From positions 1 to 35,716 of the forward strand of contig OMTG01000103.1 in NCBI GenBank assembly GCA_900313905.1: a stretch of DNA of 35,716 nt. The letters run 5' to 3'. The stretch comes from an uncultured Actinomycetes bacterium (GTDB lineage: Bacteria > Actinomycetota > Coriobacteriia > Coriobacteriales > Atopobiaceae). The notes under the pieces are model-generated. The model worked only from the letters and a program-made list of their open reading frames with translations. It did not search any database and was not told the origin of the DNA. The first letter of the stretch is position 1; every line of letters begins with the position of its first letter. The translations under genes were made by a program, and so were the position numbers. Below are positions 824 through 35,716 of the stretch, one piece after another.

Positions 824-844
824 GACGATGATGGAATGATGGGG

Positions 845-886
845 GAGCCGCTTGGAGATGCCTGGTGCATCCCGGGCGGCTCTTTT
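845..886 (+). terminator. Hairpin with T4 tail between yedF and yqeB (possible attenuator)
   Basis: A 7-bp outer stem GAGCCGC/GCGGCTC (845-851 with 876-882) encloses an inner 5-bp stem GATGC/GCATC (857-861 with 867-871) and is followed directly by TTTT (883-886). It sits in the 77-bp yedF-yqeB gap, so it may partly terminate transcription and set the ratio of yedF to the downstream genes. The short tail makes full termination uncertain. Confidence 0.5.
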
Positions 887-900
887 CGGAAGGAGACCTG

Positions 901-2834: not shown

Positions 2835-3837
2835 TGAGACCTTCTGCGACAAGGCGTTCGTGGAGCAGCTCGACAAGGAGCTTTCCGCAGGACGGAGCTT
2901 CGTCCTCATAGGCGTCGCTGCCACGAAGGGGTCGATGCCACGTGCTGCCGGCGCCCGCATGGCGGCGCTTTCAGATGGCACCTTCATCGGCACGGTCGGT
3001 GGCGGCCGCGTCGAGCAGATGGCGCAGGAGCGGGCATCCCGGATCCTGGCAGGCGCGGAAGGCAATGCCATCGCGTGGTATACGCACGCGGTGACGAAGA
3101 TGGCGTGCGGCGGCGATGCGCTCCTGACCTTCCGGAAGGTGGTGCCGGAAGACAGCTGGCGCACCTTCCTCGAGGGCATCCTCGCCCGGCTCGAGGGCGG
3201 TATCTCCTCCGTCCTCGAGGAGGACTGGAGCGACCCCGCTTTGCCCACCATCTCCTGCACCGATCTCGACGACCTGCCTGAGGGCGACCCCCGTGCGACC
3301 CTCGACGTCGCCTCGTGGGACGAGGAGAGGAAGATCTACCGGGCGCCGCTCGGGCCCGACCCCATCTGCTATGTCTTCGGGGCAGGGCATGTGGGCCAGG
3401 CGCTTGTGCCGGTCCTTGCACATATCGATTTCCGCGTCGTCGTCCTGGACGACCGCCAGGAGCTGGCACGTCCCGAGCTCTTCCCCGATGCGGAGGATGT
3501 GCGCTGCGGCAGCTTCGGCGAGCTTGCCCGCACGCTTCCCATCACGTCGCGCGACTACTGTGTCGTCGCGACCCATGGGCATGTGGCCGATATCGAGGTG
3601 CTCGAAGGGGCGATGAGGAAAAGGCCTGCCTATGTGGGCTGCATCGGGTCGAGGGGCAAGGCTGCCTTCGTGAAAAAGACGCTCGAGGAGGCGGGCGTTC
3701 CCGGCGTCGAGCGGCTCCATCTGCCGATTGGCGAGGACATCCTCGCGGTCACGCCCGCAGAGATCGCAATCTCGATCGCGGCGCAGCTGATACGGTGCCG
3801 AGCCGAGCTCAGGCCTGAGCGTCCCCACAGCCATTGA
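2821..3837 (+). CDS. xdhC: XdhC/CoxI family molybdenum hydroxylase maturation factor
   Basis: Cytoplasmic 338-residue chaperone-like protein that in related systems binds the molybdenum cofactor, supports its sulfuration and inserts it into xanthine dehydrogenase-type enzymes. The N-terminal XdhC_CoxI domain (about 10-80) shows GSMPRAAGARM and GTVGGGRVE. The C-terminal Rossmann domain (about 180-310) shows YVFGAGHVGQ and ends with VTPAEIAISIAAQLI, both typical of XdhC. The ATG at 2821 overlaps the end of selD by 14 nt and follows a GGAGGAAAGGA tract. Last gene of the first operon. Its placement with yqeB and selD suggests it serves a selenium-dependent hydroxylase whose structural genes are not in the window. 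Confidence 0.92.
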   Translation: MSSADETFCDKAFVEQLDKELSAGRSFVLIGVAATKGSMPRAAGARMAALSDGTFIGTVGGGRVEQMAQERASRILAGAEGNAIAWYTHAVTKMACGGDALLTFRKVVPEDSWRTFLEGILARLEGGISSVLEEDWSDPALPTISCTDLDDLPEGDPRATLDVASWDEERKIYRAPLGPDPICYVFGAGHVGQALVPVLAHIDFRVVVLDDRQELARPELFPDAEDVRCGSFGELARTLPITSRDYCVVATHGHVADIEVLEGAMRKRPAYVGCIGSRGKAAFVKKTLEEAGVPGVERLHLPIGEDILAVTPAEIAISIAAQLIRCRAELRPERPHSH

Positions 3838-3868
3838 TCTGAAGAGGCGTCCGCATGGATTGCGCGGA

Positions 3869-3905
3869 AGGAGGTGCCCTGCCGGGCAGGGTGCCTCCTC
3901 TTTCT
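3869..3905 (+). terminator. Terminator of the yedF-yqeB-selD-xdhC operon
   Basis: A 14-bp stem (3869-3882 with 3886-3899, two G-T wobbles) closes a 3-nt CGG loop and is followed by CTTTCT. It lies 31 nt after the xdhC stop. Confidence 0.85.
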
Positions 3906-3995
3906 GCCGTCTGCGGCTGATTTCATGCTGTTCAAACAAATAGTAAGGATAGCGGACGAATAGTATTGCAACATCTGCTAGCATGCTGTCCCAAG

Positions 3996-4019
3996 CGTTC
4001 CATTCAATTGAGTAGAACG
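3996..4019. promoter_or_regulatory. 24-bp imperfect palindrome upstream of modA, candidate operator
   Basis: CGTTC (3996-4000) and GAACG (4015-4019) flank a perfect TCAATTGA core; 20 of 24 positions are self-complementary, and the other two pairs are G-T wobbles if transcribed. It lies 24-47 bp before the modA start in an AT-richer stretch. A molybdate-responsive repressor (ModE-like) would be expected here, but no such gene is in the window and the site is not matched to a known consensus. Confidence 0.5.
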
Positions 4020-4042
4020 AAGCCACGAGAGGGGATGCGATC

Positions 4043-4906
4043 ATGAACAGTACTCTTTCGATGGGGCGCAGGAGCTTCATCGCGCTTGCAGCGGCAGCAG
4101 CCAGCACCCTTGCTGCCTGCGGCTCGACATCCACAGAAAGCTCAGGGAGCACGGCGTCGGAGCCTGTCGAGCTCAAGGTCTTCGCGGCCGCATCGCTCAC
4201 GGAATCGCTCCAGAAGGCGGGGGACCAGTATGCGGCCGTGAACGAAGGAACCACGCTGAGCTTTAACTTCGATTCCTCCGGCACGCTCAAGACCCAGATC
4301 GAGCAGGGAGCGGCCTGCGATGTCTTCATCTCGGCTGGCCAGAAGCAGATGAACCAGCTCGATGCCACGAAGGGATCGGACGCAAACCCGGATGGCCTCG
4401 ATTTCATCGATCCTGATACCCGCTTCGATATCCTCGAGAACAAGGTCACGCTCGTCGTGCCAGAGGACAACCCGAAGAGCATAACGAGCTTCGCCGATAT
4501 GGCCGAGAAGCTGAAGGCAGGGGAGATCCTCCTCGATATGGGCAACAGCGATGTGCCGGTGGGGCAGTACACGCAGAAGATCCTGGCCTACTATGGACTG
4601 GATGAGGCAGCGCTTGCCGCAGCAGGCAATGTCACCTATGGCACGAACGTGAAGGAGGTCACGACCCAGGTCTCCGAGGGCACGGTCGACTGCGGCGTGA
4701 TCTATGCGACCGACGCCCATTCGGCAGGGCTCACAATCGTGGACGAGGCGACCGAGGAGATGTGCGGCCGGGTCGTCTATCCGGCAGCCGCCCTCAAGGC
4801 CTCTGAGCATGAGGATGAGGCGAAGCAGTTCCTCGAGTTCCTCAAGGGGAGCGAAGCCTCGGCAGACTTCGAGGAGGTCGGCTTCACGCCGCTCGCCGAG
4901 GCCTAG
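4043..4906 (+). CDS. modA: Molybdate-binding lipoprotein of the ABC importer
   Basis: Extracytoplasmic solute-binding protein of 287 residues that captures molybdate (possibly tungstate) for ModBC. The signal peptide has a twin-arginine pair (Arg9-Arg10 in MGRRSFIAL), a short Ala-rich core and the lipobox LAAC (23-26), so Cys26 should be lipidated and export may use Tat. The mature protein starts with the ModA hallmark VFAAASLTESL and has the oxyanion-contact patterns FNFDSSGTLKTQIEQGA and DVFIS. The SD GAGAGGGGA lies 7 nt before the ATG. It opens the mod-moa operon. The substrate is inferred from family and from the molybdenum cofactor genes that follow. Confidence 0.95.
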   Translation: MNSTLSMGRRSFIALAAAAASTLAACGSTSTESSGSTASEPVELKVFAAASLTESLQKAGDQYAAVNEGTTLSFNFDSSGTLKTQIEQGAACDVFISAGQKQMNQLDATKGSDANPDGLDFIDPDTRFDILENKVTLVVPEDNPKSITSFADMAEKLKAGEILLDMGNSDVPVGQYTQKILAYYGLDEAALAAAGNVTYGTNVKEVTTQVSEGTVDCGVIYATDAHSAGLTIVDEATEEMCGRVVYPAAALKASEHEDEAKQFLEFLKGSEASADFEEVGFTPLAEA

Positions 4907-4923
4907 GAAAAGGATGGGAAGCT

Positions 4924-4952
4924 GGGGCAGGGGCTGCGCAGAGCCTTGCCCC
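4924..4952 (+). other. mRNA hairpin between modA and modB
   Basis: Arms GGGGCA (4924-4929) and TGCCCC (4947-4952) with an inner GGCT/AGCC pair form a bulged hairpin without a T-tail. It may stabilise the modA transcript or lower modBC expression relative to the binding protein, as is common in ABC importers. That role is inferred. Confidence 0.35.
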
Positions 4953-4974
4953 GCGCGACGTTGGGAGGCAGGAC

Positions 4975-5663
4975 ATGGACTGGTTTCCGCTCTGGAATTC
5001 CCTGCGCATCGCCCTGATCTCGACCATCGTCGTCTTCTTCCTGGGCATCTGGCTCGCGCAGGTCGTGGCACGTGCCCACAGGCTCGTGAAGGGCGTGCTC
5101 GATGTGGTGCTGACGCTGCCGCTCGTGCTGCCGCCGACCGTCGTGGGCTACCTGATCCTGCTTGTCGTCGGACCAAGGCGTCCCGTGGGTGCCTGGCTCC
5201 TGAATGTCTTCGGCGTGCAGCTGACGATGAGGTGGGAAGGGGCCATCATCGCGACACTGGTCGTGAGCTTCCCCTTGATGTACAGGACAGCCCGTGCTGC
5301 CTTCGAGGCCTTCGACCACACCCTGGCTGATGCCGGACGCACCCTCGGCAAGTCCGAGACCTGGATCTTCTGGCATGTGACGCTTCCGACCTGCCGTCAG
5401 GGCATCATCGGCGGCTGCGTGCTGGCCTTCGCCCGGGCGCTTGGTGAATACGGCGCGACCTCGATGGTCGCTGGCTATACGCCGGGCTCGACAGCGACGG
5501 TCTCGACGACGGTCTACCAGCTCTGGCGCACGGGAGATGATGCCGGGGCTCTGAGGTGGGTCCTCGTGAATATCGCGATCTCGGCGGTGGTGCTCCTGGC
5601 CTTGAACTTCTTCGAAGGGCGCACGAGGCGTGTCGTCCGTGCAGCGTCTGCAGGAGGTGCACG

Positions 5664-5667
<4 letters not shown>
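4975..5667 (+). CDS. modB: Molybdate ABC transporter permease
   Basis: Inner-membrane permease of 230 residues, normal for ModB. It has about five hydrophobic segments, the first at about 10-32, and the PLVLPPTVVGYL motif typical of ModB/CysT permeases. The EAA cytoplasmic loop that docks on the ATPase reads DAGRTLG and is followed by the GEYGATSMVAG pattern. GGGAGG lies 6 nt before the ATG. The stop overlaps the modC start (ATGA), implying coupled translation. Confidence 0.95.
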
Positions 5668-6758
<1,091 letters not shown>

Positions 6759-6797
6759 TGATGGCAGGCAGAGCCTGCCTGGAAAGGAACCTGGCCT

Positions 6798-7745
6798 GTG
6801 GAGGATAGTGAAGGAAGGAGCATACGCTACCTTCGCCTCTCGATAACCGACCGCTGCAACTGCCGCTGCCAGTACTGCATGCCCGAGGCGGGCGTGCCGA
6901 TGCTGACGCATAGCGAGATATGCCGCTACGAGGAATATGCGGAGATGGTCAGGGTCCTGGCCAGGATGGGGGTCACGAAGGTCCGCATCACGGGCGGAGA
7001 GCCGCTCGTGCGCCGGGGCGTCGTGGACCTGGTCCGCATGCTCAAGGCGATTCCCGGCATCAATGAGGTGGACCTCACGACGAATGCCTGCCTCCTGGCG
7101 CCTCTGGCAGCTCCCTTGAGGGAGGCGGGGCTCGACCGGCTGAACATCAGCCTCGATACGCTGAAGCCTGAGGTCTACCGCCAGATCACCCGCACCGGCG
7201 AGCTCGCAGATGCCCTCTCAGGCATCGGCGCCGCGAAGGAGGCAGGCTTCTCGCAGCTGAAGCTCAACTGCGTCCTTCTGGGTGGCGTGAACGACGAAGA
7301 GATCCCCGACCTCGCCCACCTTGCAGAAGATGAGGAGATCGTCGTCCGCTTCATCGAGCTCATGCCGATAGGCCCCTGCGTCCAGTGGCCGCATTCCCGC
7401 TTCATCTCGGCCGAGACCGTGCTCGAGCGGGTGCCAGAGCTTGTGCCCTGCGGATCGGACGGCGTGGCAGGGCTCTACACGGCACCGGGCTGGAAAGGGA
7501 AGATCGGCCTCATCAGGCCCATGAGCAGGAGGTTCTGCTCAGGCTGCACGAGGATCAGGATAACGTCCGATGGCAAGCTCAAGCCCTGCCTGCACTCCTC
7601 TGACGAGATAGCGCTGAGGGGCCTTTCGGGAGCTGCGCTCGAGGATGCGATACGCGCTGGCATCGCCCTGAAGCCTGCCCATCACGAGATGGGCGAAGGC
7701 CATGCAAGCTCATCAAGGCGTGCCATGAACGAGATAGGAGGATGA
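6798..7745 (+). CDS. moaA: GTP 3',8-cyclase, first step of molybdopterin synthesis
   Basis: Radical SAM enzyme of 315 residues that rearranges GTP to 3',8-cyclo-GTP. The radical SAM cluster is Cys20, Cys24, Cys27 and the GTP-side cluster is Cys247, Cys250, Cys264. GGEPLVRRG follows as in MoaA, and the protein ends in the Gly-Gly pair needed for activity. The start is GTG with GGAAAGGA about 9 nt upstream; the MoaA fold begins immediately after it. The two terminal Gly codons (GGA GGA) form part of the AGGAGG Shine-Dalgarno of the next gene, so the translation signals of moaA and moaC are interlocked. Confidence 0.96.
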   Translation: MEDSEGRSIRYLRLSITDRCNCRCQYCMPEAGVPMLTHSEICRYEEYAEMVRVLARMGVTKVRITGGEPLVRRGVVDLVRMLKAIPGINEVDLTTNACLLAPLAAPLREAGLDRLNISLDTLKPEVYRQITRTGELADALSGIGAAKEAGFSQLKLNCVLLGGVNDEEIPDLAHLAEDEEIVVRFIELMPIGPCVQWPHSRFISAETVLERVPELVPCGSDGVAGLYTAPGWKGKIGLIRPMSRRFCSGCTRIRITSDGKLKPCLHSSDEIALRGLSGAALEDAIRAGIALKPAHHEMGEGHASSSRRAMNEIGG

Positions 7746-7751
7746 GCCCTG

Positions 7752-8681
7752 ATGGAGCTCACACATATCAATGACCAGGGGCGGGCCCGCATGGTCGATG
7801 TCACGGAGAAGCCGAAGACGGACCGCCGTGCCCGTGCCCATGGGAAGGTCCATATGGCACCTGAGACCCTGGAGCTTGTCCGTACGGGCGGCATCAAGAA
7901 GGGCGATGTCCTGGCGGTCGCCCAGGTCGCCGGCATCATGGCGGCAAAGCGCACGTGGGAGCTCATCCCGATGTGCCATCCAATCCAGCTCACGGGGATC
8001 GACATCTCCTTCACGTACGAGGAGGATGGGATCTCCCTTGTGGCAGAGACCCGCTGCACCGGTGAGACCGGCGTCGAGATGGAGGCCCTGACGGCAGCAT
8101 CGGTCGCATCGCTCACGATCTACGACATGTGCAAGGCCGTGCAGCGCGACATGGAGATCGACGAGGTCTGCCTCCTCGAGAAGGAGGGCGGGAAGTCCGG
8201 CCACTTCGTGCGGGAGGAGATGCCGCAGGGAAGGGAGCTCATCGCTGAGGGGCACGTGCTTGCGACCTGCATCTCCGAGGAGAAGGGGACACGCAAGCAT
8301 CCCGTCGATGCGCTCGAGCTCGTGGTGGGCAAAGGCATTGCAGGCGATGCCCATGCGGGCAACTGGCACCGCCAGGTGAGCTTTCTCGGCAACGAGGCCG
8401 TGGACCGCATGCGGGAGCGCGGGCTCGATCTCAAAGCAGGCGATTTCGCGGAGAACGTGCTCACAGAGGGAATCGATCTGCCGCAGCTTCCGGTCGGCAC
8501 GCTGATCGAGGCGGGATCGGCCACGCTCGTGGTGACACAGATCGGCAAGACCTGCCACAATGACTGCGAGATCCGCCGCCTCACCGGCATGTGCGTGATG
8601 CCGACAGACGGGATATTCTGCATCGTGCTGAAGGATGGGACGATTGCGGCAGGAGACCGCATCCGTGCCTACAGGGCCTGA
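7752..8681 (+). CDS. moaC: MoaC-MOSC fusion: cyclic pyranopterin monophosphate synthase with MOSC domain
   Basis: Residues 1 to about 152 are MoaC, which converts the MoaA product to cyclic pyranopterin monophosphate: LIPMCHP (71-77), GVEMEALTA (107-115) and DMCK (125-128) are intact. Residues about 163-309 are a MOSC domain (beta-barrel fold of cofactor sulfurases and YiiM-like proteins) with [13 protein letters not shown] and the cysteine motif KTCHNDCEI (Cys268, Cys272). MoaC alone is about 160 residues, so this is a true fusion in one uninterrupted frame. AGGAGG (7736-7741) lies 10 nt before the ATG, inside the moaA C-terminus. The MOSC part may bind or sulfurate the cofactor; in this selenium context it may handle the terminal chalcogen, but that is speculative. 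Confidence 0.93.
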
Positions 8682-8694
8682 GAGGAGAGGGACC

Positions 8695-9768
8695 ATGAAG
8701 CTTGTGAGGACCGAAGAGGCAGTGGGCCATGTCCTCTGCCACGATATGACGCAGATCGTCACGGGAGGCACCGACAGCCAGGGGCATGAGAAGGAGCGCT
8801 TCAAGGGGCCGCGCTTCCGCAAGGGCCATGTGGTGCAGCCGGAGGACATCCCGGTCCTGCTCTCGATGGGGAAGGAGCACCTCTACGTCTGGGAGATGGA
8901 GCCCGGCATGCTCCACGAGGACGAGGGGGCAAAGCGTCTGGCGGCACTCTGCCTCGGCGAGGGCTGCGTCGCCTCAGGCGAGCCCCGCGAAGGCAAGATC
9001 GGCATCAATGCCGCGACAGACGGTGTCTTCCTCGTCGATACGGAGCGCCTCTTTGCGGTGAACAGCACCGACCAGGTGATGATCGCCACGCGGAAGGGGA
9101 ACTTCGGCGTGAAGGCGGGCGATGCCCTGGCCGGCACCCGCGTGATCCCGCTCGTTATCCCCGAGACGATGCTTGCTGCGGCTGAGGCAGCAGCGGATGT
9201 GGCCACCTTTGGCCCCCTCATGCGCGTCGCGCCCTACAAGCTCAAGTCCGCTGCCATCATCGCGACCGGCTCCGAGGTGAAGCGTGGCCTCATCGAGGAC
9301 ACGTTCACGCCGGTCGTCGTCCGCAAGCTCGCTGCCTTCGGAATCGAGTGCGCCTCCATCGCCAAGCCTGGCGATGATATGGCAGACCTCGTCTCTGCCA
9401 TCGATGCAGCCCGGGCCCAGGGTGTCGATATGGTCGTCTGCACGGGCGGCATGAGCGTCGATCCGGATGACAACACGCCGGGTGCCATCAAGCGCGCCGG
9501 GGCCCGCATCGTGACCTACGGGGCGCCGGTGCTTCCAGGAGCGATGCTCTGCGTCGGCTACTTTGACGGCGAGGATGGTGCGTCGGTGCCGATTGTGGGA
9601 CTTCCGGGCTGCGTCATGTACAACGCGGCGACCGTCTTCGACCTCGTGCTGCCCAGGATCGCAGCAGGCATCCCGCTCGTGAAGCGCGATTTCGTCGAGC
9701 TCGGCGAGGGCGGGCTCTGCCTCGGATGCAAGCCCTGCACCTTCCCGGTCTGCCCCTTCGGCAAGTGA
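8695..9768 (+). CDS. MoeA-like molybdopterin-binding protein with C-terminal cysteine cluster
   Basis: Cytoplasmic 357-residue protein. Residues about 175-330 form a MoCF-binding domain as in MoeA and MogA, with IIATGSEVKRG, VVCTGGMSVDPDD and VGLPGCVMYN. The N-terminal region (1-170) is unlike classical MoeA domains I/II. The last 16 residues hold four cysteines (342, 345, 348, 353) that could bind a metal or Fe-S cluster. Relatives occur beside selenium/molybdenum hydroxylase genes in anaerobes; the reaction is presumably molybdate insertion into, or handling of, molybdopterin, but this is inferred. It follows moaC-MOSC by 13 bp with GAGAGGAGAGGGACC before the ATG and precedes mogA by 12 bp. 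Confidence 0.8.
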   Translation: MKLVRTEEAVGHVLCHDMTQIVTGGTDSQGHEKERFKGPRFRKGHVVQPEDIPVLLSMGKEHLYVWEMEPGMLHEDEGAKRLAALCLGEGCVASGEPREGKIGINAATDGVFLVDTERLFAVNSTDQVMIATRKGNFGVKAGDALAGTRVIPLVIPETMLAAAEAAADVATFGPLMRVAPYKLKSAAIIATGSEVKRGLIEDTFTPVVVRKLAAFGIECASIAKPGDDMADLVSAIDAARAQGVDMVVCTGGMSVDPDDNTPGAIKRAGARIVTYGAPVLPGAMLCVGYFDGEDGASVPIVGLPGCVMYNAATVFDLVLPRIAAGIPLVKRDFVELGEGGLCLGCKPCTFPVCPFGK

Positions 9769-9780
9769 GGAGGATCTTCG

Positions 9781-10302
9781 ATGCATGCAGAGGAGAAAGC
9801 GTCCGATTTCCCGGCACGGGTGATCACGGTGAGCGACCGCTCCTTCCAGGGAGTCCGTCCTGATGGCTCGGGGCCGGCGCTCGTGGCGCTCCTGGCCGAG
9901 GAAGGCTATCAGGTGGAGCCGGAGGCGGCAATCGTGCCGGATGAGCAGGACCAGATCGCTGCGGCCCTGAGACAGGCCGTCGCCGACGATGTGGCACTCG
10001 TCCTCACGACAGGCGGCACCGGATTCGCTCCCCGCGATGTGACGCCTGAGGCGACGCTCTCCGTGGTCGAGCGCCGCTGCCCCGGCATCCCCGAGGCGAT
10101 GCGGGCGGTCTCGCTTGCCATCACGCCGCACGGCTGCCTCTCCCGCGAGGAGGCGGGCATCTCAGGCCACACCTTGATCATCAATCTCCCGGGAAGCCCC
10201 AAGGCGGCACGGGAGAACCTCGGAGCGGTCCTGCCGGCGCTGCCGCATGGGCTAACGCTTCTGAGGGTGCCTGGCCCCCACGACTGCGCGAAGAGCTCCT
10301 AG
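9781..10302 (+). CDS. mogA: MogA/MoaB-type molybdopterin adenylyltransferase
   Basis: Cytoplasmic protein of 173 residues, normal for the MogA/MoaB family, which adenylates molybdopterin before metal insertion. Motifs: VITVSDRSFQG near the N-terminus, LTTGGTGFAPRDVTPEAT and INLPGSPKAARENL. A GAGGAGGA tract sits 7-13 nt before the ATG. Last plus-strand gene of the mod-moa operon. Its TAG stop (10300-10302) overlaps the stop of convergent yqeC (10299-10301 on the minus strand) within the palindrome CTAG. No terminator fits between them, so the transcripts must overlap or be limited otherwise. Confidence 0.9.
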   Translation: MHAEEKASDFPARVITVSDRSFQGVRPDGSGPALVALLAEEGYQVEPEAAIVPDEQDQIAAALRQAVADDVALVLTTGGTGFAPRDVTPEATLSVVERRCPGIPEAMRAVSLAITPHGCLSREEAGISGHTLIINLPGSPKAARENLGAVLPALPHGLTLLRVPGPHDCAKSS

Positions 10303-11039
10303 GCAAGACGCACGATCTCGGCGTTGCGGATGCTGCCGGCATAGACCGGAAGCGTGCAGCCAAGATAGCTGAGCGCTGCTGCGAAGGCGGAGGCAGCCTC
10401 TGCCGCGCTGTCTTCTGCCTGGTTCACGAAAAGGGCATCAGGCGCGATCTGGCCTGAGGCCAGCTCAGAGGCAACGACGCGCGCTGTACGCTCGGGCGTG
10501 GCAGCATCCTCTGTGCTGCAGCCGGCACGCTCGGCAAAGAGGGCAGGGCGATGCGCTGAGCGTGCAATGGGCCGTCCGAAGCCCGAGGCGCCGAGGACGA
10601 GGACGCACCGGGCTGCGCAGGCGGGGACCACAGGCTCATGCGGGCCATGTGCTTTGAGGGGCAGCATGTGGGAGCCGTCTGCCTCGATAAGGAGATAGCC
10701 AGCCACCTCGGCAAGCGGTGCGATTCCGAAGGAGGGACAGCAGAGCTTCTTCTCGCCCTTCACAAGGCACTGGTCTGCGACATAGGCGAGATGGATTTTC
10801 CGGAGTGCTGTGGCGGCCTCTTCGAGGGTGGCGCCTGCTATCAGCGGAAGGCCCTGCGGCGGCCAGAGATGGGTCGTCGTCGTGAGGGCGATTGTGGCAT
10901 CAGGATGCTCTGCTGCAAGCCCGCGGCCGAGCTTCTCCATAAGGGACGTCTTGCCGCCCGAGCCGATGAGGGAGACTATGCGGGCACCCTGCAGCAGGGC
11001 TTCGGCGAATGGTGCTGTCTCCTGCGTGCCCCGATGCAT
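10299..11039 (-). CDS. yqeC: Selenium-dependent hydroxylase accessory protein YqeC
   Basis: Cytoplasmic 246-residue protein of the YqeC family, which co-occurs with yqeB and orphan selD. A P-loop-like GSGGKTS lies at 26-32, followed by [18 protein letters not shown] and [10 protein letters not shown], all family hallmarks. The start at 11039 is preferred over an in-frame upstream start at 11129 because AGGAG lies just before it and the extra N-terminus is low in conserved features. It is divergent from xpt and convergent with mogA. YqeC is thought to be a nucleotide-dependent factor in forming or inserting the labile selenium cofactor; no reaction has been shown that I know of. Confidence 0.9.
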
Positions 11040-11273
11040 GCGCTCTCCTGTCTGTGTGCTGTCTCCAACCAGTGTAGCCGCACTTTCCCCATGCCGCGGC
11101 CTTATGCCCTCTTTTTGCAGGCCGGGCAAAACTCCCGTCCAGGTGGATGCTCAGGGGTGTCTTGGTGCAAAATAACGATATGCTTACATGAAAGGCAGCT
11201 TACGAGACGCGCGATGCTGGGCATCGGGCGCATTCTGGGTCAGAGGCACAAGCAGTTCGCAGGAGGACAGCAT

Positions 11274-11852
11274 ATGTTGGAGCTCGAAGAGCGTATCCGT
11301 CGTGATGGCACGGTGAAGACCGGCGATGTCCTGAAGGTAGACAACTTCCTGAACCACCAGATGGATGTGGAGCTCTTCCAGAAGATGGCCCGCCAGTGGA
11401 AGGCGGACTTCGCTGATGCCCCCATCAACAAGATCCTCACGATCGAGGCTTCCGGCATCGGCATCGCTGCCATCGTCGCTGCAGAGTTCGGCGTGCCGGC
11501 CGTCTTCGCGAAGAAGAGCCAGAGCATCAACCTCGACGGCGAGGTCTATACGACGAAGATTCGCTCCTTCACGCATGGCCGCGTCTACGATGTGATCGTC
11601 TCGAAGAAGTTCCTGGGACCCGAGGACCATGTCCTCATTATCGATGACTTCATGGCGAACGGATGCGCGATGGAGGGGCTGCTCGAGATCTGCCACGAGG
11701 CAGGGGCGACCGTCGAAGGCATCGGCATCGCGATCGAGAAGGGCTTCGAGCCGGGCGGCAAGAAGCTGCGCGAGCAGGGCTATAGGGTCGATTCGCTCGC
11801 AATCGTCGAGTCCATGGACCCCGAGACGAACGAGATAGTCTTCCGCCACTAG
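11274..11852 (+). CDS. xpt: Xanthine phosphoribosyltransferase
   Basis: Salvages xanthine to XMP using PRPP in the cytoplasm. The 192-residue protein has the PRPP loop [11 protein letters not shown] (120-130), the N-terminal [10 protein letters not shown] typical of Xpt and the [20 protein letters not shown] region. AGGAGGA (11261-11267) precedes the ATG. The long leader (about 230 bp shared with divergent yqeC) was checked for a purine riboswitch and none was recognised. Beside a selenium-dependent hydroxylase locus, Xpt would use the xanthine such an enzyme produces or consumes, which hints that the missing hydroxylase may act on purines (inference). Confidence 0.94.
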
Positions 11853-11875
11853 AAGTCCCCTACAGAATGCCGCTG

Positions 11876-11907
11876 GGAGGCCTGCTGCAGAAGTGCGGCA
11901 GGCCTCC
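11876..11907 (+). other. Strong hairpin between xpt and the DUF3343 gene
   Basis: A 14-bp stem (11876-11889 with 11894-11907, one T-G wobble) closes a GAAG tetraloop. It starts 24 nt after the xpt stop. The following bases (TGCTAGACT) lack a T-run, so it may be a Rho-assisted terminator, an attenuator or a transcript-stabilising element. Confidence 0.5.
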
Positions 11908-11947
11908 TGCTAGACTGGTGGACAGTCTTCATCCGGAAGGAAGGTCC

Positions 11948-12187
11948 ATGCCGCTCCAGAAGCACCGTTCCCTTGTTATCGCCTTCGATTCCACGACCCA
12001 GGCGCTTGCCGCAGAAGCCCTCTGCAAGGAGCAGGGGCTTCCCGGACGCATCATCCCGCTTCCGGCCGAGATATCGGCAGGCTGCGGGCTTTCGTGGAAG
12101 GCGGAGCCGGAGGAGCGGGATGTGCTCACAGCTGCCCTCGATGAGGCAGGCATCATCTGGAAGGGCGCCTATGTCCTCGACATCTAA
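11948..12187 (+). CDS. DUF3343 protein, putative Se/S carrier-like
   Basis: Small cytoplasmic protein of 79 residues. The N-terminal VIAFDSTTQALAAEALCK and the later PLPAEISAGCGLSWK match the DUF3343 family, annotated as putative Se/S carrier-like because it travels with yedF, selD and TIGR01977 desulfurases. Cys32 (about) and Cys55 (in AGCGLSWK) are conserved-type cysteines. GGAAGGAAGG precedes the ATG; an in-frame start at 11867 would add a low-quality N-terminus. The gene overlaps the desulfurase start by 17 nt, so the two are translationally coupled and may act as donor and acceptor of persulfide or perselenide. Confidence 0.85.
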   Translation: MPLQKHRSLVIAFDSTTQALAAEALCKEQGLPGRIIPLPAEISAGCGLSWKAEPEERDVLTAALDEAGIIWKGAYVLDI

Positions 12188-13331
12188 GCTGATCTATCTC
12201 GACAATGCAGCGACGACGCTCAGGAAGCCGGACTGCGTCGTGGAGGCGGTCACGAAGGCGCTCTGCACGGTCGGCAATGCCTCGCGGGGAGCCCATGCAG
12301 AATCTCTTGCAGCCTCGCGGGTGGATTTCCGCTGCCGCCAGCAGCTGGCAGCGCTCTTCGGCTGCCGTCCTGACCATGTCTGCTTCACGGCGAACTCGAC
12401 CGAGGCCCTGAACATTGCCCTGATGGGTCTTCTCAATCCAGGCGACCATGCCATCTCGACCGTGACCGAGCACAACTCGGTGCTGCGTCCGCTCTTCCGC
12501 CTGGAGGATGAGCGGAAGGTCGAGGTGAGCCTTGTCGGGACCGATGGGGAGGGCAGGCTCCGCTACGAGGAGTTCGAGCGCTTCCTGCAGCCGAACACGA
12601 AGCTCGTCGTCGTGAACCATGCCTCCAACGTCTGTGGCAACCGGGCAGAAATCGCCCGCATCGGCGCCTTCGCGCATGACCATGGCCTCATCTTCGTCGT
12701 CGATGCCTCGCAGACCGCCGGAACGGTCCCGATCGATATGGACGCCTGCCACATCGATGTGCTCTGCTTTACAGGGCACAAGAGCCTGATGGGTCCCCAA
12801 GGGACGGGCGGCCTCTGCATCCGCGAGGGGATCGAGATCCGGCCCTGGAAGGTTGGGGGCACGGGCGTCCATTCCTACGACAGGCACCAGCCCCAGGACT
12901 ATCCGACACGGCTCGAGGCAGGTACCCTCAACAGCCATGGGATTGCCGGGCTTTCCGCTGCCCTGGGCTACATCGAGCAGACAGGCATCGATTGCATCGC
13001 TGCGCATGAGGAGCAGCTCATGCGCCAGTTCTATGAGGGGGTGCGCGGCATCGAGGGGGTTCAGGTCTACGGGGACATCGCAGAGGAACTCCAGCCGAAG
13101 CGCTCGGCAATCGTCGCCCTCAACATCCGGGACTACGACTCGTCTGCCGTATCGGACGATCTGGCGAGCCGTTTTGGCATCGCGACCCGTCCCGGCGCCC
13201 ACTGTGCCCCGCTCATGCACAAGGCGCTCGGCACCGTCGAGCAGGGCGTCGTCCGCTTCAGCTTCGGCTGGTTCAATACCGAAGCTGAGGTCGATGAGGC
13301 GATTGCGGCTGTCGCTGAGATTGCCCGCTAG
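12171..13331 (+). CDS. Cysteine desulfurase / selenocysteine lyase-like (TIGR01977 type)
   Basis: PLP enzyme of the class V aminotransferase fold, 386 residues, short N-terminus as in the TIGR01977 (EF2568) group. YLDNAATTLRKP opens the fold, His102 and Asp178 are in the cofactor positions, Lys204 (GHKSLMGPQGTGG) should form the Schiff base and Cys345 (RPGAHCAPL) is the persulfide/perselenide cysteine. The ATG at 12171 lies inside the end of the DUF3343 gene. Family members cluster with yqeB, yqeC and selD, so it likely mobilises selenium or sulfur for hydroxylase maturation. Classical NifS or SufS roles are less likely because no scaffold genes are nearby. Confidence 0.9.
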   Translation: MSSTSKLIYLDNAATTLRKPDCVVEAVTKALCTVGNASRGAHAESLAASRVDFRCRQQLAALFGCRPDHVCFTANSTEALNIALMGLLNPGDHAISTVTEHNSVLRPLFRLEDERKVEVSLVGTDGEGRLRYEEFERFLQPNTKLVVVNHASNVCGNRAEIARIGAFAHDHGLIFVVDASQTAGTVPIDMDACHIDVLCFTGHKSLMGPQGTGGLCIREGIEIRPWKVGGTGVHSYDRHQPQDYPTRLEAGTLNSHGIAGLSAALGYIEQTGIDCIAAHEEQLMRQFYEGVRGIEGVQVYGDIAEELQPKRSAIVALNIRDYDSSAVSDDLASRFGIATRPGAHCAPLMHKALGTVEQGVVRFSFGWFNTEAEVDEAIAAVAEIAR

Positions 13332-21981: not shown

Positions 21982-22836
21982 ATGAAGGAAGCGGGGTGCT
22001 GGCGCATGGCCGAGACGATGGCACAGCAAGGCCGGCTCAGGTGGATGGCAGGATATCTCCTCCATGATCCGGCCTGCGCCTATGTGATAGCAGGGAATTC
22101 GGATGAGATGGCCCTGCCGGAGGATGAGGAGGAGCTGAAGCTCTTCGTGCGGGCTCTCGTGAATGTGCGGGAGCCGCTTGAGCCAAGCGCAGAGTTCCTC
22201 AGCGTGCAGGACGCCTATCTTGCAGAGCGCCTGCGTGGCCTTCATGTGACGCAGCTGGATGAGATCTCCTTCGACGATGAGGGGCTCGCTGTCTGGCAGG
22301 GGAACATCACGACGCTTGCAGCAGATGCCATCGTGAATGCCGCGAACAGCCAGATGCTCGGCTGCTTCGTGCCGAACCACCGCTGCATCGACAACGCGAT
22401 CCAGACCTACGCTGGCGTCGAGCTCCGGCTTGCCTGTGCCGAGCTGATGGAGCGCCAAGGGCATGAGGAAGGGGTCGGGCGCGCGAAGATCACGCCGGGC
22501 TTCAATCTGCCCGCACGCTATGTGCTCCATACGGTGGGGCCGATGCTGCCGACCGGCATCCCCACTGCCCGCGATCGCTGGTCGCTTCGGAGCTGCTACA
22601 CGTCCTGCCTCGAGCTGGCGCTCGAACAGGGTCTCGGAAGCGTCGCCTTTTGCTGCATCTCGACAGGCGAGTTCCGCTATCCCCACAAGGAGGCAGCAGA
22701 AATCGCGGTGGATGCGGTGAGAAAGTTCAAGAGCGACCATGCAGAGGCGGCGCAGATGAAGGTCATCTTCAATGTCTTCAAGGACGAAGACCGGGATATC
22801 TACGAGCGGCTGCTAGCGGGTAAGAAGAGCCGCTGA
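21982..22836 (+). CDS. Zinc-dependent macrodomain protein-ADP-ribose hydrolase
   Basis: 284-residue protein. The macrodomain occupies about 100-284: GNITTLAADAIVNAANSQML holds the ADP-ribose-binding NAAN (119-122), and the insert Cys128-x4-His133-x-Cys135 provides the zinc ligands of the class of macrodomains linked to SirTM. STGEFRYP is the phosphate loop. The N-terminal 100 residues are a helical domain also found in this subgroup. GAGGAAAG lies just before the ATG. The SirTM gene follows 59 bp later. The pair should reverse and make protein mono-ADP-ribosylation respectively. Confidence 0.92.
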   Translation: MKEAGCWRMAETMAQQGRLRWMAGYLLHDPACAYVIAGNSDEMALPEDEEELKLFVRALVNVREPLEPSAEFLSVQDAYLAERLRGLHVTQLDEISFDDEGLAVWQGNITTLAADAIVNAANSQMLGCFVPNHRCIDNAIQTYAGVELRLACAELMERQGHEEGVGRAKITPGFNLPARYVLHTVGPMLPTGIPTARDRWSLRSCYTSCLELALEQGLGSVAFCCISTGEFRYPHKEAAEIAVDAVRKFKSDHAEAAQMKVIFNVFKDEDRDIYERLLAGKKSR

Positions 22837-22895
22837 TACGCGCAGGTTGCAGAAACAGGAACGGGATGTGTCGTGTCCCGAGAAGGAAGGTGCCC

Positions 22896-23807
22896 ATGCT
22901 GTTCTCGAAGAAATGGATGACAGGATCCACCAAGGAGTGGGACGAGTCGCTCAGGACGATGCAGGAATGGCTCGACGAGGCAGATGCCGTGATGATTGGG
23001 GCAGGTGCCGGGCTCTCTGCTGCCTGCGGTCCGGAATTCGCCTATTCAGGGGAGCGTTTCGAGCGCATCTTCGGAGACTTCGCCGAGAAGTACGGGATCG
23101 CCGACGAGTATTCGGGCGGCTTCTACCCTTATGGCTCCCAGGAGGAGTTCTGGGCCTGGTGGTCGCGTGCCATCTGGCATGAGCGGTACCTGGCACCTGC
23201 AGGGGAGGCCTACCGGAACCTGCTTCGGCTCGTCGAGGGCAAGGACTACTTCGTCCTCACGACGAATGTGGACCACCAGTTCCAGAAGGCAGGCTTCGCA
23301 AAGGAGCGGCTCTTCTATACGCAGGGAGACTACGGCCTCTTCCAGTGCTCGGTGCCCTGCCACAAGAAGACCTACGACAACTACGAGATTGTGAAGCTCA
23401 TGGTCGAGACCCAGCAGGATATGAGAATCCCCTCGGAGCTCGTGCCGAAGTGCCCGGTCTGCGGCGAGCCGATGAGCATGAACCTGCGCTGCGATGACAC
23501 CTTCGTCGAGGATGCAGGCTGGCATGCCGCTGCGGAGCGCTACGGGCGCTGGATGCGCGAGCATGAGGGGCAGAAGATTCTCTTCCTCGAGATTGGCGTC
23601 GGCGGCAACACGCCCTCGATCATCAAGTTCCCGTTCTGGCGCGAGGTCCAGGCCCATCGCAGCTGCCGCTACATCCAGCTGAACAAGGGCGAGGTCCTGG
23701 CCCCCACTGCGATGAGGGGACGGGCTATCCTCGTCGATGGGGATGCTGGGCTTGCCCTGCGCGAGCTTGCCGGTACCGCTGTGGCTGAGCAGCGGGGCGC
23801 ACGATAA
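22896..23807 (+). CDS. SirTM-type (class M) sirtuin, protein ADP-ribosyltransferase
   Basis: 303-residue NAD-dependent enzyme. Sirtuin Rossmann motifs GAGAGLS (35-41) and TTNVDHQ (122-128) are present. Cysteines 151 and 155 (CSVPC) and 186/189 (KCPVC) could form the zinc site. In SirTM enzymes this scaffold transfers ADP-ribose to lipoylated GcvH-L and does not deacetylate. The ATG at 22896 was chosen over 22866 because GAAGGAAGG lies directly upstream. The genes for GcvH-L and lipoate ligase that complete the system in Firmicutes are absent from the window, so the target is unknown. Confidence 0.92.
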   Translation: MLFSKKWMTGSTKEWDESLRTMQEWLDEADAVMIGAGAGLSAACGPEFAYSGERFERIFGDFAEKYGIADEYSGGFYPYGSQEEFWAWWSRAIWHERYLAPAGEAYRNLLRLVEGKDYFVLTTNVDHQFQKAGFAKERLFYTQGDYGLFQCSVPCHKKTYDNYEIVKLMVETQQDMRIPSELVPKCPVCGEPMSMNLRCDDTFVEDAGWHAAAERYGRWMREHEGQKILFLEIGVGGNTPSIIKFPFWREVQAHRSCRYIQLNKGEVLAPTAMRGRAILVDGDAGLALRELAGTAVAEQRGAR

Positions 23808-30628: not shown

Positions 30629-32545
30629 ATGGAGAGGCTTTCAGAGATGGAACGCAGGCGCAGGGCCGAGGTGCGCGGGGGTACGGATGCTCCCACGGCG
30701 CTCGATGGGCGCTATGCAGCCTTCGTTGCAGATGCCAGGAAAGCTGCCAGAGGGAGGCTCGATGCGCTTCAAGCGAAGGAGCGCTACGAGCGCTACCTGC
30801 TGGCTCTGGCACGCGAGCAGAGCCGGGCGACCTCGCTTCTCCACGAGCGGCACTCGACGCCTGAGACCAGGGCGCACGCCCAAGCGCTCTCGAAGATCGA
30901 GGCTCGCCGCCGCCATCTTATGGAGACCGACGCCGATGCCTTCTTCGTCTGGCACGAGGAGGAGCTTGGCTCGGACCTCAAAGACCAGGAGGCAGGGCGT
31001 CTGATCGATGTGCCCTATCTCGCGCGGGCACGCCGTGCCATCGCATCTTCGCTCGATGCGGGCATCCCGGTCTATCTCGTGGGGCATCTGGGATCGGGCA
31101 AGACCCAGCTCGCCGTCGAGGCGGCAGAGGACTATTCCTATGGACGCACGATCGATGCCAAGCTGGCAGAGGAGATGGGCGCCTGGGAGAAGGCGCATCC
31201 CGAGGCCACGTATGAGGAGCGGTGCGCATATTTCAGCGATGCCTTTGCTGCGACCACTTCGGCGCTCTCGCCTGAGGACATGAAACCCTATCTCGTCTCG
31301 GGTTCCCACAACCTGACGCCCGAGGACCTCTTCTCGGAGAAGAGCCTCACGCTCTCCCATGCAGGCTCGGGGTCCGCGCCCGATGCCCAGCTGGCGCATC
31401 TGATGGATTCCTTCCTGGGCTTCCTCGAGGAGAAGAGGGAGGATCTCGCCCGGCTCGACCATTCCGTGAAGGTCGATGTGATCGAGTCTGCCTGGAAGAC
31501 CTATTCCGACCTCTATGTGGCCGAGCAGTCAGGCTACGGCACGACGGTCGAGAAGGTCGACAAGGAGGTGCTCCTTGCCCTCAGGCAGGGCCGTCCTGTC
31601 ATCATCGACGAGATGAATGCAATCGCGATGCCGAACCTCATCGCCCTGAACGATATCCTCCAGCACCATGCAGGGCAGGAGGCCTATGTCGCAGGGGTCG
31701 GCAAGGTCGAGATCCAGCCAGGCTTCTGCCTCATCGGTACAGGCAACCTCTCGACGCAGCAGGTGAGCTACGAGGGAACGAATGCCCTGAACCCTGCCTT
31801 CCAGTCCCGCTTCACGACGATCGAATACAATTATGTGCCGCAGGCGACAGAAGGCTCTCTGAAGGACCGCACGGATGAGACGCCCTCGGAGCTCTTCCGC
31901 CTCATCGTCGAGCATCTCCTGAACGAGGATGGCTCGCTCGATATCCCCGATGCCGGACATACGCTCGAGCTCCTCTGGCAGCTGGCCGAGCTTGCGCGCA
32001 TGAGCCAGAACATCTTCGAGGGAGTCTCGGAGCTGGGAGCTGACGCCGATACGCCGACACTTGCAGAAGGCGTCCTTTCCATCCGTAACCTCATGCACGT
32101 CCTCGACTTCTGGGACCAGGGCGAAGAGGCAGACCTCTCGCTTGCGCTCTGGGATGCATTCCTCTCGACCGTCACGAATGCCGACGATCGGAACCTGCTT
32201 CTGGGTCTTGCCGTCCGCTACGGCTTCTTCCAGGAGGCTGATGGCTGGAAGGTGCCGGCACGCGCCCGCGGTGCAGCAGCCTTGAGCTATGAGGACATCA
32301 GGTGCGCGCCCTATGCCTACGACGCAGCGCTCCTCGAGCATCTGAGTACCGAGGATGTCGTGTACCTCCTCTTCGGCAACGGGCCGGCACGCACGATGCT
32401 GCCGGATGACCTGGCAGCAGATATCCAGATCGATGGCTCTGCCGAGCAGGGCATCTCGGTCGCAGAGGATGTGGCAGCCCATGCCCGCACGCTCGGGGCC
32501 GGCGTCCGTGTCCTCGATGCGCTCTTCCCGGACAAAGAGGAATAG
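30629..32545 (+). CDS. MoxR-like AAA+ ATPase of a VWA-linked operon
   Basis: 638-residue cytoplasmic ATPase. Walker A GHLGSGKT (152-159), Walker B VIIDEMN (324-330), sensor-1 GTGN (370-373) and a likely arginine finger Arg394 (NPAFQSRF) identify the MoxR/dynein-like AAA_5 class. The first 130 residues are a charged helical region. The span from Walker A to Walker B is about 165 residues, far longer than the usual 60 or so, and includes GSHNLTPEDLFSEK, the MoxR helix-2 insert pattern. The last 200 residues are a helical lid and extension. It is followed by an unknown gene and a VWA protein, as MoxR ATPases usually are. Such pairs remodel or assemble protein complexes; the client here is unknown. 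Confidence 0.88.
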   Translation: MERLSEMERRRRAEVRGGTDAPTALDGRYAAFVADARKAARGRLDALQAKERYERYLLALAREQSRATSLLHERHSTPETRAHAQALSKIEARRRHLMETDADAFFVWHEEELGSDLKDQEAGRLIDVPYLARARRAIASSLDAGIPVYLVGHLGSGKTQLAVEAAEDYSYGRTIDAKLAEEMGAWEKAHPEATYEERCAYFSDAFAATTSALSPEDMKPYLVSGSHNLTPEDLFSEKSLTLSHAGSGSAPDAQLAHLMDSFLGFLEEKREDLARLDHSVKVDVIESAWKTYSDLYVAEQSGYGTTVEKVDKEVLLALRQGRPVIIDEMNAIAMPNLIALNDILQHHAGQEAYVAGVGKVEIQPGFCLIGTGNLSTQQVSYEGTNALNPAFQSRFTTIEYNYVPQATEGSLKDRTDETPSELFRLIVEHLLNEDGSLDIPDAGHTLELLWQLAELARMSQNIFEGVSELGADADTPTLAEGVLSIRNLMHVLDFWDQGEEADLSLALWDAFLSTVTNADDRNLLLGLAVRYGFFQEADGWKVPARARGAAALSYEDIRCAPYAYDAALLEHLSTEDVVYLLFGNGPARTMLPDDLAADIQIDGSAEQGISVAEDVAAHARTLGAGVRVLDALFPDKEE

Positions 32546-32549
32546 CGAG

Positions 32550-33197
32550 ATGGCAGAAGCTGACCTTGCTGCACGTGCCTGCGCCTTCAGAGAGAAGGTG
32601 CGCTCGTGCAGGCCCTCCATAGAGGCAGCGCTTCGCGAGGGCACAGCCTCGCTCGAGCTTCTGGCAGAGCTTTCTTCTCTCGAAGCGGAAGAGAAGGCTC
32701 TTCTCGAAGAGGCCCTGCCCGCTGCCCGCGAGAAGCTCATTGCGACACGGGACATGGGAGGCAGGCGCGAGGTGCTTCTGAAAGACGCTACGAAGATCTT
32801 AGAGTCGGGACTTCCGGATGAGGTCAAGGCCCTTGTGGCAGAGCATCTCGGAGAGGACGCTGAGCTCGCAGAGCCGGAGCTTCCCCTGGAGCCCGAAGAG
32901 ACAGGAGAGGGAATCGCAGTGCAGGGTGTCGTCCTCAAGGGCAATCTCTGGTGCACGGTCTCGGACGGCACGGTCTGCTTTGCCATCACGGACGAAGGGG
33001 CGGCCTATCTTCTGGAGAGGAATCTCACCTGGAAGATAGCACCGGAGCCGCTGGCAGAAGAGTGCTTCCCGGCCTGGATCGTGCAGGAGTCTCCTGCATC
33101 CTGCCTCTTCGTCGATGTGGATGGCGCGCTCGAGCGCCTGTCCTACAACCGGCTCGATACGGCAGAAGCGCTTCTCAGGGAGCAGCTCTATGCGTAA
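32550..33197 (+). CDS. Uncharacterised protein between the AAA+ and VWA genes
   Basis: 215-residue protein that I do not recognise. The N-terminal 100 residues are helical with heptad-like Leu/Glu runs (SLELLAELSSLEAEEKALLEEAL) and look like a coiled coil. An acidic Pro/Glu linker (about 102-118) is followed by a beta-rich C-terminal domain with VVLKGNLWCTVSDGTVCFA and PASCLFVDVDGALERLSY. The start follows the ATPase stop by 4 nt with AGAGGA upstream, and the end overlaps the VWA gene by 8 nt, so the three are co-translated. It may be an adaptor between the ATPase and the VWA protein (inference). Confidence 0.75.
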   Translation: MAEADLAARACAFREKVRSCRPSIEAALREGTASLELLAELSSLEAEEKALLEEALPAAREKLIATRDMGGRREVLLKDATKILESGLPDEVKALVAEHLGEDAELAEPELPLEPEETGEGIAVQGVVLKGNLWCTVSDGTVCFAITDEGAAYLLERNLTWKIAPEPLAEECFPAWIVQESPASCLFVDVDGALERLSYNRLDTAEALLREQLYA

Positions 33198-35166
33198 GGA
33201 TACGTACGGAAAGATAGCCCGGCAGCTCTTTGACGAGGAAGAGAGAAGAAGCGATGAGGCTCCTCAGACGGTCTCGCCGGAGTTTGCCAAGCGCTGCGAA
33301 GACATCATCAAGGCCCATTCCGACCTTATCGTCCTCTTCTCGGGAGATATGCGCCTGCGCCTTGTGACAGACGCGAAGGCAGAGCGCTTCGAGCTCAGGC
33401 CCGAGGAGCCTTCGCTTGTCGTGCCGCTTGCCTTCTTCCAGGAAGCGCCGTTCTCGGAGGACCGGTTCCTGTTCCATATCTACGAAGCGCTTGCGCTCTA
33501 CCCGGACTGGCGGGCGCACCCCGACCTCTCTCTCGCGCGCGAGAAGACGTTTCTGCCGGAGGCGCAGGAGCTCACGCAGGCAGTGCTCTCGCGTGTCCGA
33601 GAGCTGGGGCTTGAGGATGACAAGGCATACCAGCCAGATATCGTGATGCCGAACATGCAGGAGGCCGTGCTCGGCTTCCTCGATGCGGTAGATGAGTGGA
33701 CCTCGACCCTGATTGTGCGTCTCAGGGCTCCCCGCTATCTCGATGAGAGGGTTGCAGACGAGGTGGCGCGGATGCTTCTGTGGGAGGACCAGTTCCCTTC
33801 GGTACTCCATCCGAAGGAGCTTGCACCGCTTCTTGGCCCGTCGATTCTCCAGGCCGAGTGGTATGGAACAGAGTCGCTCGAAGAGCCTGAGATTGTGCAG
33901 CTCCTCAAGGAAAAGACGATGGGGGAAGAGCGGTTCTCCTTCGTGCGCGAAAACCTTCTGCGGCTTTCCGAGGAAGGTTCCGGCATCGAGGCACGAGATT
34001 CCTTCATCAGGACCTTCCTGCTTCCTGCCTGGCTTGACCTCATGAAGCGCGACATCGAGAAGAAGGAATACGGTGCCACAGAGGAGGAAGAGGCCGAAGG
34101 AGGCTCTGCCTCCCGGACGAAGCGTTCCCGCCGCCATGGTCCCGAGATGGCACAGGCCCAGAAGGAGGCTGCGCTCAAGAGCCTGAAGGCGGCACAGGAC
34201 GAACGGAGACATGCGGCATCCGCCCTCATAGAAGGTGTGCCTGATCTCTCTCCGTTTGGCGTCACGGCAGAAGACGAGAAGCTCTTCTCCCACTATGAGG
34301 CGCTTGTGCGTCCCGCACGAGCGCGCATGCGCCAGTTCTGGCATGAGCTCATAGGAGAGGCTGCCCAGGAGGTTTCCGTCAAGGTCGAGAGGACCCTTAC
34401 CGGCAAGCTCGATACGCATGCCGTGATAAATGGGTGGCCCTCGCTCGTGGAGGCAGAGCGGACTGATAACTACAGGAACCTTGCCTTCTTCAACTCCTCC
34501 GAGCTCCAGCGGCGCTATCACCAGCTGCCGAAGAAGCTCAAGGTCTCCTTCGTCGTGGACAATTCGGGATCGATGAGGTCAGGAAAGCTCGAGCCAGCGA
34601 GAGAGGCGCTCTCCGTTGTCCTGCTCTCGCTCGAGGACTTCTCCCGCTACCTTGCCGCGGCAGCGGCGAAGGCGCACGAGAAGATAGAGATAGAGACCGA
34701 GGTCTGGCTCTTCGGCACGCACCACAGGCAGGTGCTCTCCTTCAAGGACAAGGGACATAAGCGGAAGGCGGGACAGGTGCTCTCGGTTGCACGTCTTGCC
34801 GGCACTGATGGATCGACGAATGACGGAGCCTGCCTCAAAGAGATTGTTTCCGCCACAAGCCAGAAAGAGGTGCAGGAGCTCAAGTCCGGCCGTGAGGCGC
34901 ATCTCGTGTTCGAAGTGACGGATGGTGCATCGTCTTTCCCGGGAGCTGCGAAGAAGGCCGTAGATGAGCTCGAGAAGAAGGGCATCGAGATCCATGCAAT
35001 AGAGATTGGCCGTGCTGACGACAAGGAGGCGCAGACGGTCTTCTCATACATCTTCGGAGAGCGTGGTGTCTACCTCGGCGAGCGGGTGGACAAGCTGCCC
35101 GAAGAGCTCATGAAGCAGCTGCGTCAGGGTGTCTCCAAGGCATTCTTGAGTAGCAGGAGAGGGTAG
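33190..35166 (+). CDS. Large VWA-domain protein partnered with MoxR-like ATPase
   Basis: 658-residue cytoplasmic protein without signal peptide or membrane segment. A VWA domain covers about 450-645: the metal-ion-dependent adhesion site is complete with Asp457-x-Ser-x-Ser (VVDNSGSM), a Thr in GTDGSTND and an Asp in EVTDGASSF. The N-terminal 440 residues are mostly helical with a basic/acidic linker (SRTKRSRRHGPE) near 320 and no recognised domain. This layout resembles ViaA- and CobT/BchD-like VWA partners of MoxR ATPases, though it matches none closely by eye. It overlaps the preceding gene by 8 nt. It would present or recruit a target to the ATPase. Confidence 0.87.
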   Translation: MRKDTYGKIARQLFDEEERRSDEAPQTVSPEFAKRCEDIIKAHSDLIVLFSGDMRLRLVTDAKAERFELRPEEPSLVVPLAFFQEAPFSEDRFLFHIYEALALYPDWRAHPDLSLAREKTFLPEAQELTQAVLSRVRELGLEDDKAYQPDIVMPNMQEAVLGFLDAVDEWTSTLIVRLRAPRYLDERVADEVARMLLWEDQFPSVLHPKELAPLLGPSILQAEWYGTESLEEPEIVQLLKEKTMGEERFSFVRENLLRLSEEGSGIEARDSFIRTFLLPAWLDLMKRDIEKKEYGATEEEEAEGGSASRTKRSRRHGPEMAQAQKEAALKSLKAAQDERRHAASALIEGVPDLSPFGVTAEDEKLFSHYEALVRPARARMRQFWHELIGEAAQEVSVKVERTLTGKLDTHAVINGWPSLVEAERTDNYRNLAFFNSSELQRRYHQLPKKLKVSFVVDNSGSMRSGKLEPAREALSVVLLSLEDFSRYLAAAAAKAHEKIEIETEVWLFGTHHRQVLSFKDKGHKRKAGQVLSVARLAGTDGSTNDGACLKEIVSATSQKEVQELKSGREAHLVFEVTDGASSFPGAAKKAVDELEKKGIEIHAIEIGRADDKEAQTVFSYIFGERGVYLGERVDKLPEELMKQLRQGVSKAFLSSRRG

Positions 35167-35235
35167 AGCCGTTTCAGCTTCCAAGGATCGTATACTGTGC
35201 GCTGCGTCGAAGAAGCGCTCGTAAAGGTACGGTCC

Positions 35236-35716
35236 ATGGGAGAAGAACCGGTGCTCGATATATGGATGCTGGTCGAGATTCAGCGTGTCGGCAAGCCGCT
35301 GTATGAAAAGAGCGCTCTGGACTTCGGTGAGGGAGAGCGCGTCTTCCGCTTGGCTCAAGGTACATACGTCTCAGGCGATATCTGGCACGCGACATGGGAT
35401 GGATATCCTGCCTTGTGGCAGAAGGTCTGGCTGCTTGTGTCCAATGGTGTCATTGACGCGAGAGATCTTCTGGGCAAGCCCTTAAGCGATACGTCTGACC
35501 AGGCTTCCCTATCAGATGAAGCTCTGTCTCTCTGCTGGAGCAGAGAGACAGCAGCAGAGCTTGTCCCAGAACCTATAGGTGCGGCTGTGCTCGATGCAAT
35601 CGATAGGGCGGCCGACGAGCTCGACGATCGTGTCCAGCAGGAGTTCGCTTCCGGCGCGCCGGTCTTCAGGATCAATGATGCGGGCGACTATGTCGCGGAG
35701 AAGGACTGGAACGAAG
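35236..35716 (+). CDS. Unrecognised gene after the VWA gene, cut by the window end
   Basis: An open frame runs from ATG 35236 (AAAGG 8 nt upstream) to the end of the window, at least 160 residues. A GTG at 35197 with AAGGA 9 nt upstream is an alternative start in the same frame. The visible protein starts MGEEPVLDIWMLVEIQRVGK and is acidic, Trp-containing (DIWHATWDGYPALWQKVW) and mixed alpha/beta; no family is recognised. It follows the VWA stop by 69 bp with no terminator between, so it may be a fourth member of the AAA-X-VWA operon. Confidence 0.6.
   Translation, partial: MGEEPVLDIWMLVEIQRVGKPLYEKSALDFGEGERVFRLAQGTYVSGDIWHATWDGYPALWQKVWLLVSNGVIDARDLLGKPLSDTSDQASLSDEALSLCWSRETAAELVPEPIGAAVLDAIDRAADELDDRVQQEFASGAPVFRINDAGDYVAEKDWNE

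Follow-up and report, generated by a model that had tools for sequence, protein, structure and literature searches.

Coupled AAA+ ATPase, orphan and VWA genes form a candidate MoxR-type remodelling module in an uncultured member of the Atopobiaceae

Three adjacent genes at positions 30629-35166 of the window (the whole 35,716-nucleotide stretch of DNA analysed here, which is the entire contig, C45) encode an AAA+ ATPase, an orphan protein and a VWA protein, and we lean towards the reading that their products make up a single chaperone, broadly of the MoxR AAA+/VWA kind, which would use ATP to remodel a client and in which the VWA protein would dock on the ATPase ring and the middle protein would act as adaptor. 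The observed basis for this reading is the coupling of the three genes, the intact ATPase and MIDAS motifs, and the kinship of the AAA core to midasin, CobS, NorQ and CbbQ. The module probably remodels or activates an enzyme, and, by analogy, activation of a metallo-enzyme would be the likeliest kind of client work.

The extent of the module was established from the ORF listing and a reading of the sequence (Table 1). The AAA gene is separated from the middle gene by a 4-nt gap, and the middle gene overlaps the VWA gene by 8 nt, which suggests coupled translation of all three. In-frame codon bias amounts to 0.45, 0.22 and 0.25 bits per codon for the AAA, middle and VWA genes, respectively, and turns negative when the frame is shifted; all three genes share their synonymous codon bias with the neighbouring genes, and each was also called by a simple codon-based gene caller. 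Because its neighbour-like codon bias is present in frame and absent in the shifted frames, the middle gene is very likely a real gene, though it has no homologs, and the coding bias in all three frames, together with the gap and the overlap, bears out the three tightly coupled genes of the original prediction. The base composition of the module likewise resembles that of its neighbours, in keeping with long residence. The inverted repeat upstream of the AAA gene has no T-run, and no consensus terminator was found there; this hairpin may separate two transcription units. On its far side lies an oleate hydratase gene of the MCRA family. Elsewhere in the window (21982-23807), a macro-domain gene is followed by a gene that appears sirtuin-like by eye (GAGAGLSAACG) and has no Pfam match, and the two resemble a macrodomain-linked sirtuin pair.

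Table 1. Positions in the window of the three module genes and of the features that flank them.
Feature	Position	Strand	Remarks
Inverted repeat, perfect, 14-bp, 3-nt loop	30553..30583	n/a	between oleate hydratase gene and AAA gene; from repeat search
AAA+ ATPase gene	30629..32545	+	ATG start, 638 aa; AAA_5/MoxR-CobS-midasin type
Orphan middle gene	32550..33197	+	215 aa
VWA gene	33190..35166	+	658 aa
Fourth gene, cut by contig end	35197..35716	+	exact start uncertain, at 35197 or further on; protein with tandem domains; judged probably outside module

The first protein is an ATPase of the AAA_5/MoxR clade with Walker A (GHLGSGKT, residues 152-159), Walker B (VIIDEMN, 324-330), sensor 1 (GTGN, 370-373) and an arginine finger (R394 within QSRF) all intact. 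Its Pfam match to AAA_5 is weak (4.9e-5), and its best family match is a CobS-like PHROG (1.7e-14). The AAA core alone matched only midasin chains among PDB sequences (E 7e-12), and a profile of the core with its Coriobacteriia relatives, for which core segments only were aligned, matched midasin and then CobS (3e-10), NorQ, CbbQ and McrB; nearly all of these profile matches are AAA rings with VWA partners. Besides the core, the protein has a stretch of some 150 residues ahead of Walker A, an extension at its C terminus and, between the two Walker motifs, a pair of inserts of about 50-60 aa each.

The VWA protein comprises an N-terminal region (residues ~1-290), a charged linker (~295-320) and a VWA domain (~450-620), which was recognized by Pfam at the C-terminal end (9.1e-11) and is followed by only about 42 residues. 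Its MIDAS (DxSxS-T-D) is complete, with D457, S459, S461, T543 and D578, so that the ATPase gene is accompanied, as in MoxR AAA+/VWA pairs, by a nearby gene for a VWA protein with all MIDAS residues in place. Both the MoxR-like ATPase and the 658-residue VWA protein with intact MIDAS that had been proposed from the sequence by eye are therefore confirmed. The VWA protein resembles other AAA-linked VWA proteins only weakly (hhalign probability <10%), and a search of PDB with the VWA sequence gave no meaningful match. The stretch 509-546 is a candidate pore finger; the model that AF2 built for the VWA part from its single sequence (pLDDT 42.5) is too poor to display it or to serve in a fold search. 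A degenerate metallopeptidase-like domain, suspected by eye at the N terminus, was rejected, as it had no hhalign support and HExxH is absent. No transmembrane segment was found in the module.

The middle protein has no match over cut-off in Pfam, NCBIfam, PADLOC or PHROGs (sub-threshold noise only in the last), and a search of 396 Coriobacteriia genomes yielded noise only (best E 0.004); the expectation that it would be unlike the known pairs thus holds. Because it has no detectable homolog, gene coupling is the one reason for counting it in the module. Its single-sequence AF2 model (pLDDT 48.6) is too poor for a fold search and suggests, at low confidence, a helical N-terminal half, an acidic/proline linker and a C-terminal half with two beta-hairpin-helix units. 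No mutual similarity was found when the middle, fourth, AAA and VWA proteins were compared.

Among the known systems, NorQ-NorD and CbbQ-CbbO offer a close parallel in architecture: they share with the module the AAA core clade, adjacent genes and a VWA protein built of an N-terminal region, a charged linker and a C-terminal VWA domain with MIDAS, which is the arrangement described for NorD (PMC9976466, PMC13036017). They differ in that the AAA protein of the module is extended by a long N-terminal region and a pair of additional inserts and that a middle gene intervenes; moreover, neither Pfam nor NCBIfam gave a NorD or CbbO family match for the module proteins, and no cNOR (nitric oxide reductase) or rubisco gene was a neighbour among the window ORFs scanned. 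By profile, CobS ranks second among the solved relatives of the AAA core, but no cobalamin genes were found near the module, and neither the CobS_N and CobT domains nor the CobS-CobT models were detected over cut-off in Pfam and NCBIfam. Midasin (Mdn1/Rea1) has the closest solved AAA core by sequence and likewise works an AAA ring with a MIDAS VWA domain; however, it is a single, very large eukaryotic polypeptide that contains several AAA domains, whereas the module consists of separate bacterial proteins. For RavA-ViaA, no match to the RavA LARA/lid or to ViaA was found in the module with Pfam and NCBIfam.

In NorQ-NorD, a VWA domain with a pore finger is docked on a hexameric AAA ring, the MIDAS contacts the client and the linker twists (PMC9976466, PMC13036017). 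Similarly, we propose that the AAA protein of the module would form a hexameric ring and that the VWA domain would dock on this ring in the way that NorD docks on NorQ, with 509-546 as its candidate pore finger. The MIDAS would grip an acidic surface of the client, and ATP hydrolysis would twist or open the client via the charged linker, while the middle protein would most likely be an adaptor joining the pair to its client, or a regulator of the ring. No client gene was found in the operon of the module. The neighbouring oleate hydratase, a flavin enzyme whose gene is set apart by the inverted repeat, is not favoured as client, since its absence from the corresponding locus of the genome RUG014, together with the AAA and middle genes, is the sole reason for it. 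A bolder form of the proposal is that the module is a genuinely ternary MoxR-VWA machine, whose client is set by an unrelated adaptor with its gene between those of motor and gripper, and that it represents a midasin-near bacterial AAA subfamily with its own new third subunit; this we regard as possible but doubtful.

The module was found intact in one genome only, in family, class and phylum samples within Actinomycetota. An intact AAA gene was present in 1 of 140 genomes of the family, and the further class and phylum samples contained generic AAA cores only and no intact module. The plasmids and phages searched likewise gave generic AAA cores only, or nothing, and close-relative scans of IMG/VR with the AAA, VWA and middle proteins gave nothing. 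Intact homologs may exist in other phyla, because the searches sensitive to distant relatives covered Actinomycetota and were extended beyond the phylum by one close-relative scan. Within the family, the VWA search revealed one other genome, that of the uncultured Olsenella RUG014, the closest sister of the source genome. After the two MFS genes, the VWA gene survives there as a remnant broken by stops, internal gaps and changes of frame, and the locus has no oleate hydratase, AAA or middle gene. This remnant indicates that the ancestor of the source genome and RUG014 had at least the VWA gene and that the module was most likely lost from RUG014. Neither AAA nor VWA found a match in G002, a third genome of the genus, and both RUG014 and G002 thus live without an intact module.

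The fourth gene, which is truncated at its 3' end because the window is the whole contig, had been predicted as a possible member of the module. Its protein gave nothing over the Pfam cut-off. In RUG014 it is intact (224 aa, two related domains) while the module is broken there, and a one-domain relative stands alone in another genus, in a genome (G009) without the module; the fourth gene is therefore probably outside the module. Its family has a W-rich domain of about 100 aa in one or two copies, with no Pfam match (L008:10864-11538, L027:1539-1880 and window 35197-35716). Just past it in RUG014, beside the decayed locus, a GmrSD-type restriction gene lies on the other strand (L008:11602-13623).

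Weak matches led to a two-gene AAA-VWA cassette in five other Coriobacteriia genomes (G125, G140, G197, G753 and G042), and an AAA gene of the same type was found near a contig end in G776. These pairs (L028, L033, L060, L062 and L064) share with the module an AAA protein with a long N-terminal helical region and a protein with a C-terminal VWA domain (~590-610 aa, encoded directly after the AAA gene), but they have no middle gene, and the AAA core alone can be aligned: it is homologous to that of the window (hhalign 96.7%, E 4e-10), whereas the VWA proteins gave no significant alignment. Conservation of the middle gene beside its two partners was thus not found in the genomes searched, either here or as a second intact module. 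A molybdopterin-family oxidoreductase gene adjoins the pair in two genomes, G753 and G042 (L060:2827-9501, L062:1-10001), and in G042 a CobW-type GTPase and a DUF5714 protein are encoded a few genes away, which hints at metallo-enzyme work for these relatives and not for the module of the window itself; in both loci the pair may be a dedicated maturation pair. Another AAA-VWA pair, in G285 (L063:1-6436), is CobS/CobT-like, with a VWA protein that matches CobT_C over cut-off, and lies downstream of apparent CobW-type and uroporphyrinogen-decarboxylase-like genes.

The lack of a gene between AAA and VWA in the distant Coriobacteriia pairs, together with the lack of homologs of the middle protein, would also fit an ordinary two-component pair in whose operon an independent small gene lies by chance; the 4-nt gap and the 8-nt overlap on either side of the middle gene, suggesting translation of the three as a unit, make this unlikely. 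Equally improbable, in our judgement, is a role in anti-phage conflict, as a ternary MoxR-vWA system whose sensor would be the middle protein instead of VMAP or iSTAND. Like the VMAP/iSTAND ternary systems, the module combines MoxR, VWA and a unique third protein (PMC7159879), and its patchy distribution, its loss in the sister genome and the GmrSD-type gene near the RUG014 locus fit such a role. However, the VMAP systems have the gene order VMAP-MoxR-vWA, the MoxR N-terminal motifs WxhapG and PsWRxa, and effector domains C-terminal to vWA (PMC7159879), whereas the module has the order AAA-middle-VWA, an AAA protein lacking both motifs, and a C-terminal VWA domain that no effector domain follows. 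The module proteins contain neither a nuclease nor a TM nor an NADase domain, PADLOC gave no match, and the plasmids and phages searched did not carry it, so the conflict role raised in the original prediction found no positive evidence.

The gene content of the window also brings to mind a maturation factor for a selenium-dependent molybdenum hydroxylase, acting as CoxD/CoxE do for CO dehydrogenase; CoxD and CoxE mature a molybdenum hydroxylase (PMC3471820, PMC4240915), and Se/Mo cofactor genes (yedF, yqeB, selD, xdhC-like, modA, moaC/MOSC, yqeC and cysteine desulfurase) occupy the start of the window (212-13331). Yet 17 kb and unrelated genes lie between this cluster and the module, and yqeB was detected in 20 of 60 relatives, among them the two sister genomes in which the module is not intact; the module is thus not needed for the Se-Mo hydroxylase, and this client is not supported and is very unlikely. 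Molybdate ABC genes besides modA, a gene resembling moaA and one for xanthine phosphoribosyltransferase belong to this cluster as well.

We therefore return to the remodelling chaperone as the reading that we prefer. With one intact copy and no client found, the module is of unproven importance; it is accessory and was, most likely, lost in a sister species, and this loss provides a natural comparison. Clients are known for few of the MoxR-VWA machines, common as these are. If the three genes do encode such a pair plus a dedicated third subunit, they would make a compact and testable model of how a ring of this kind is directed to its target.
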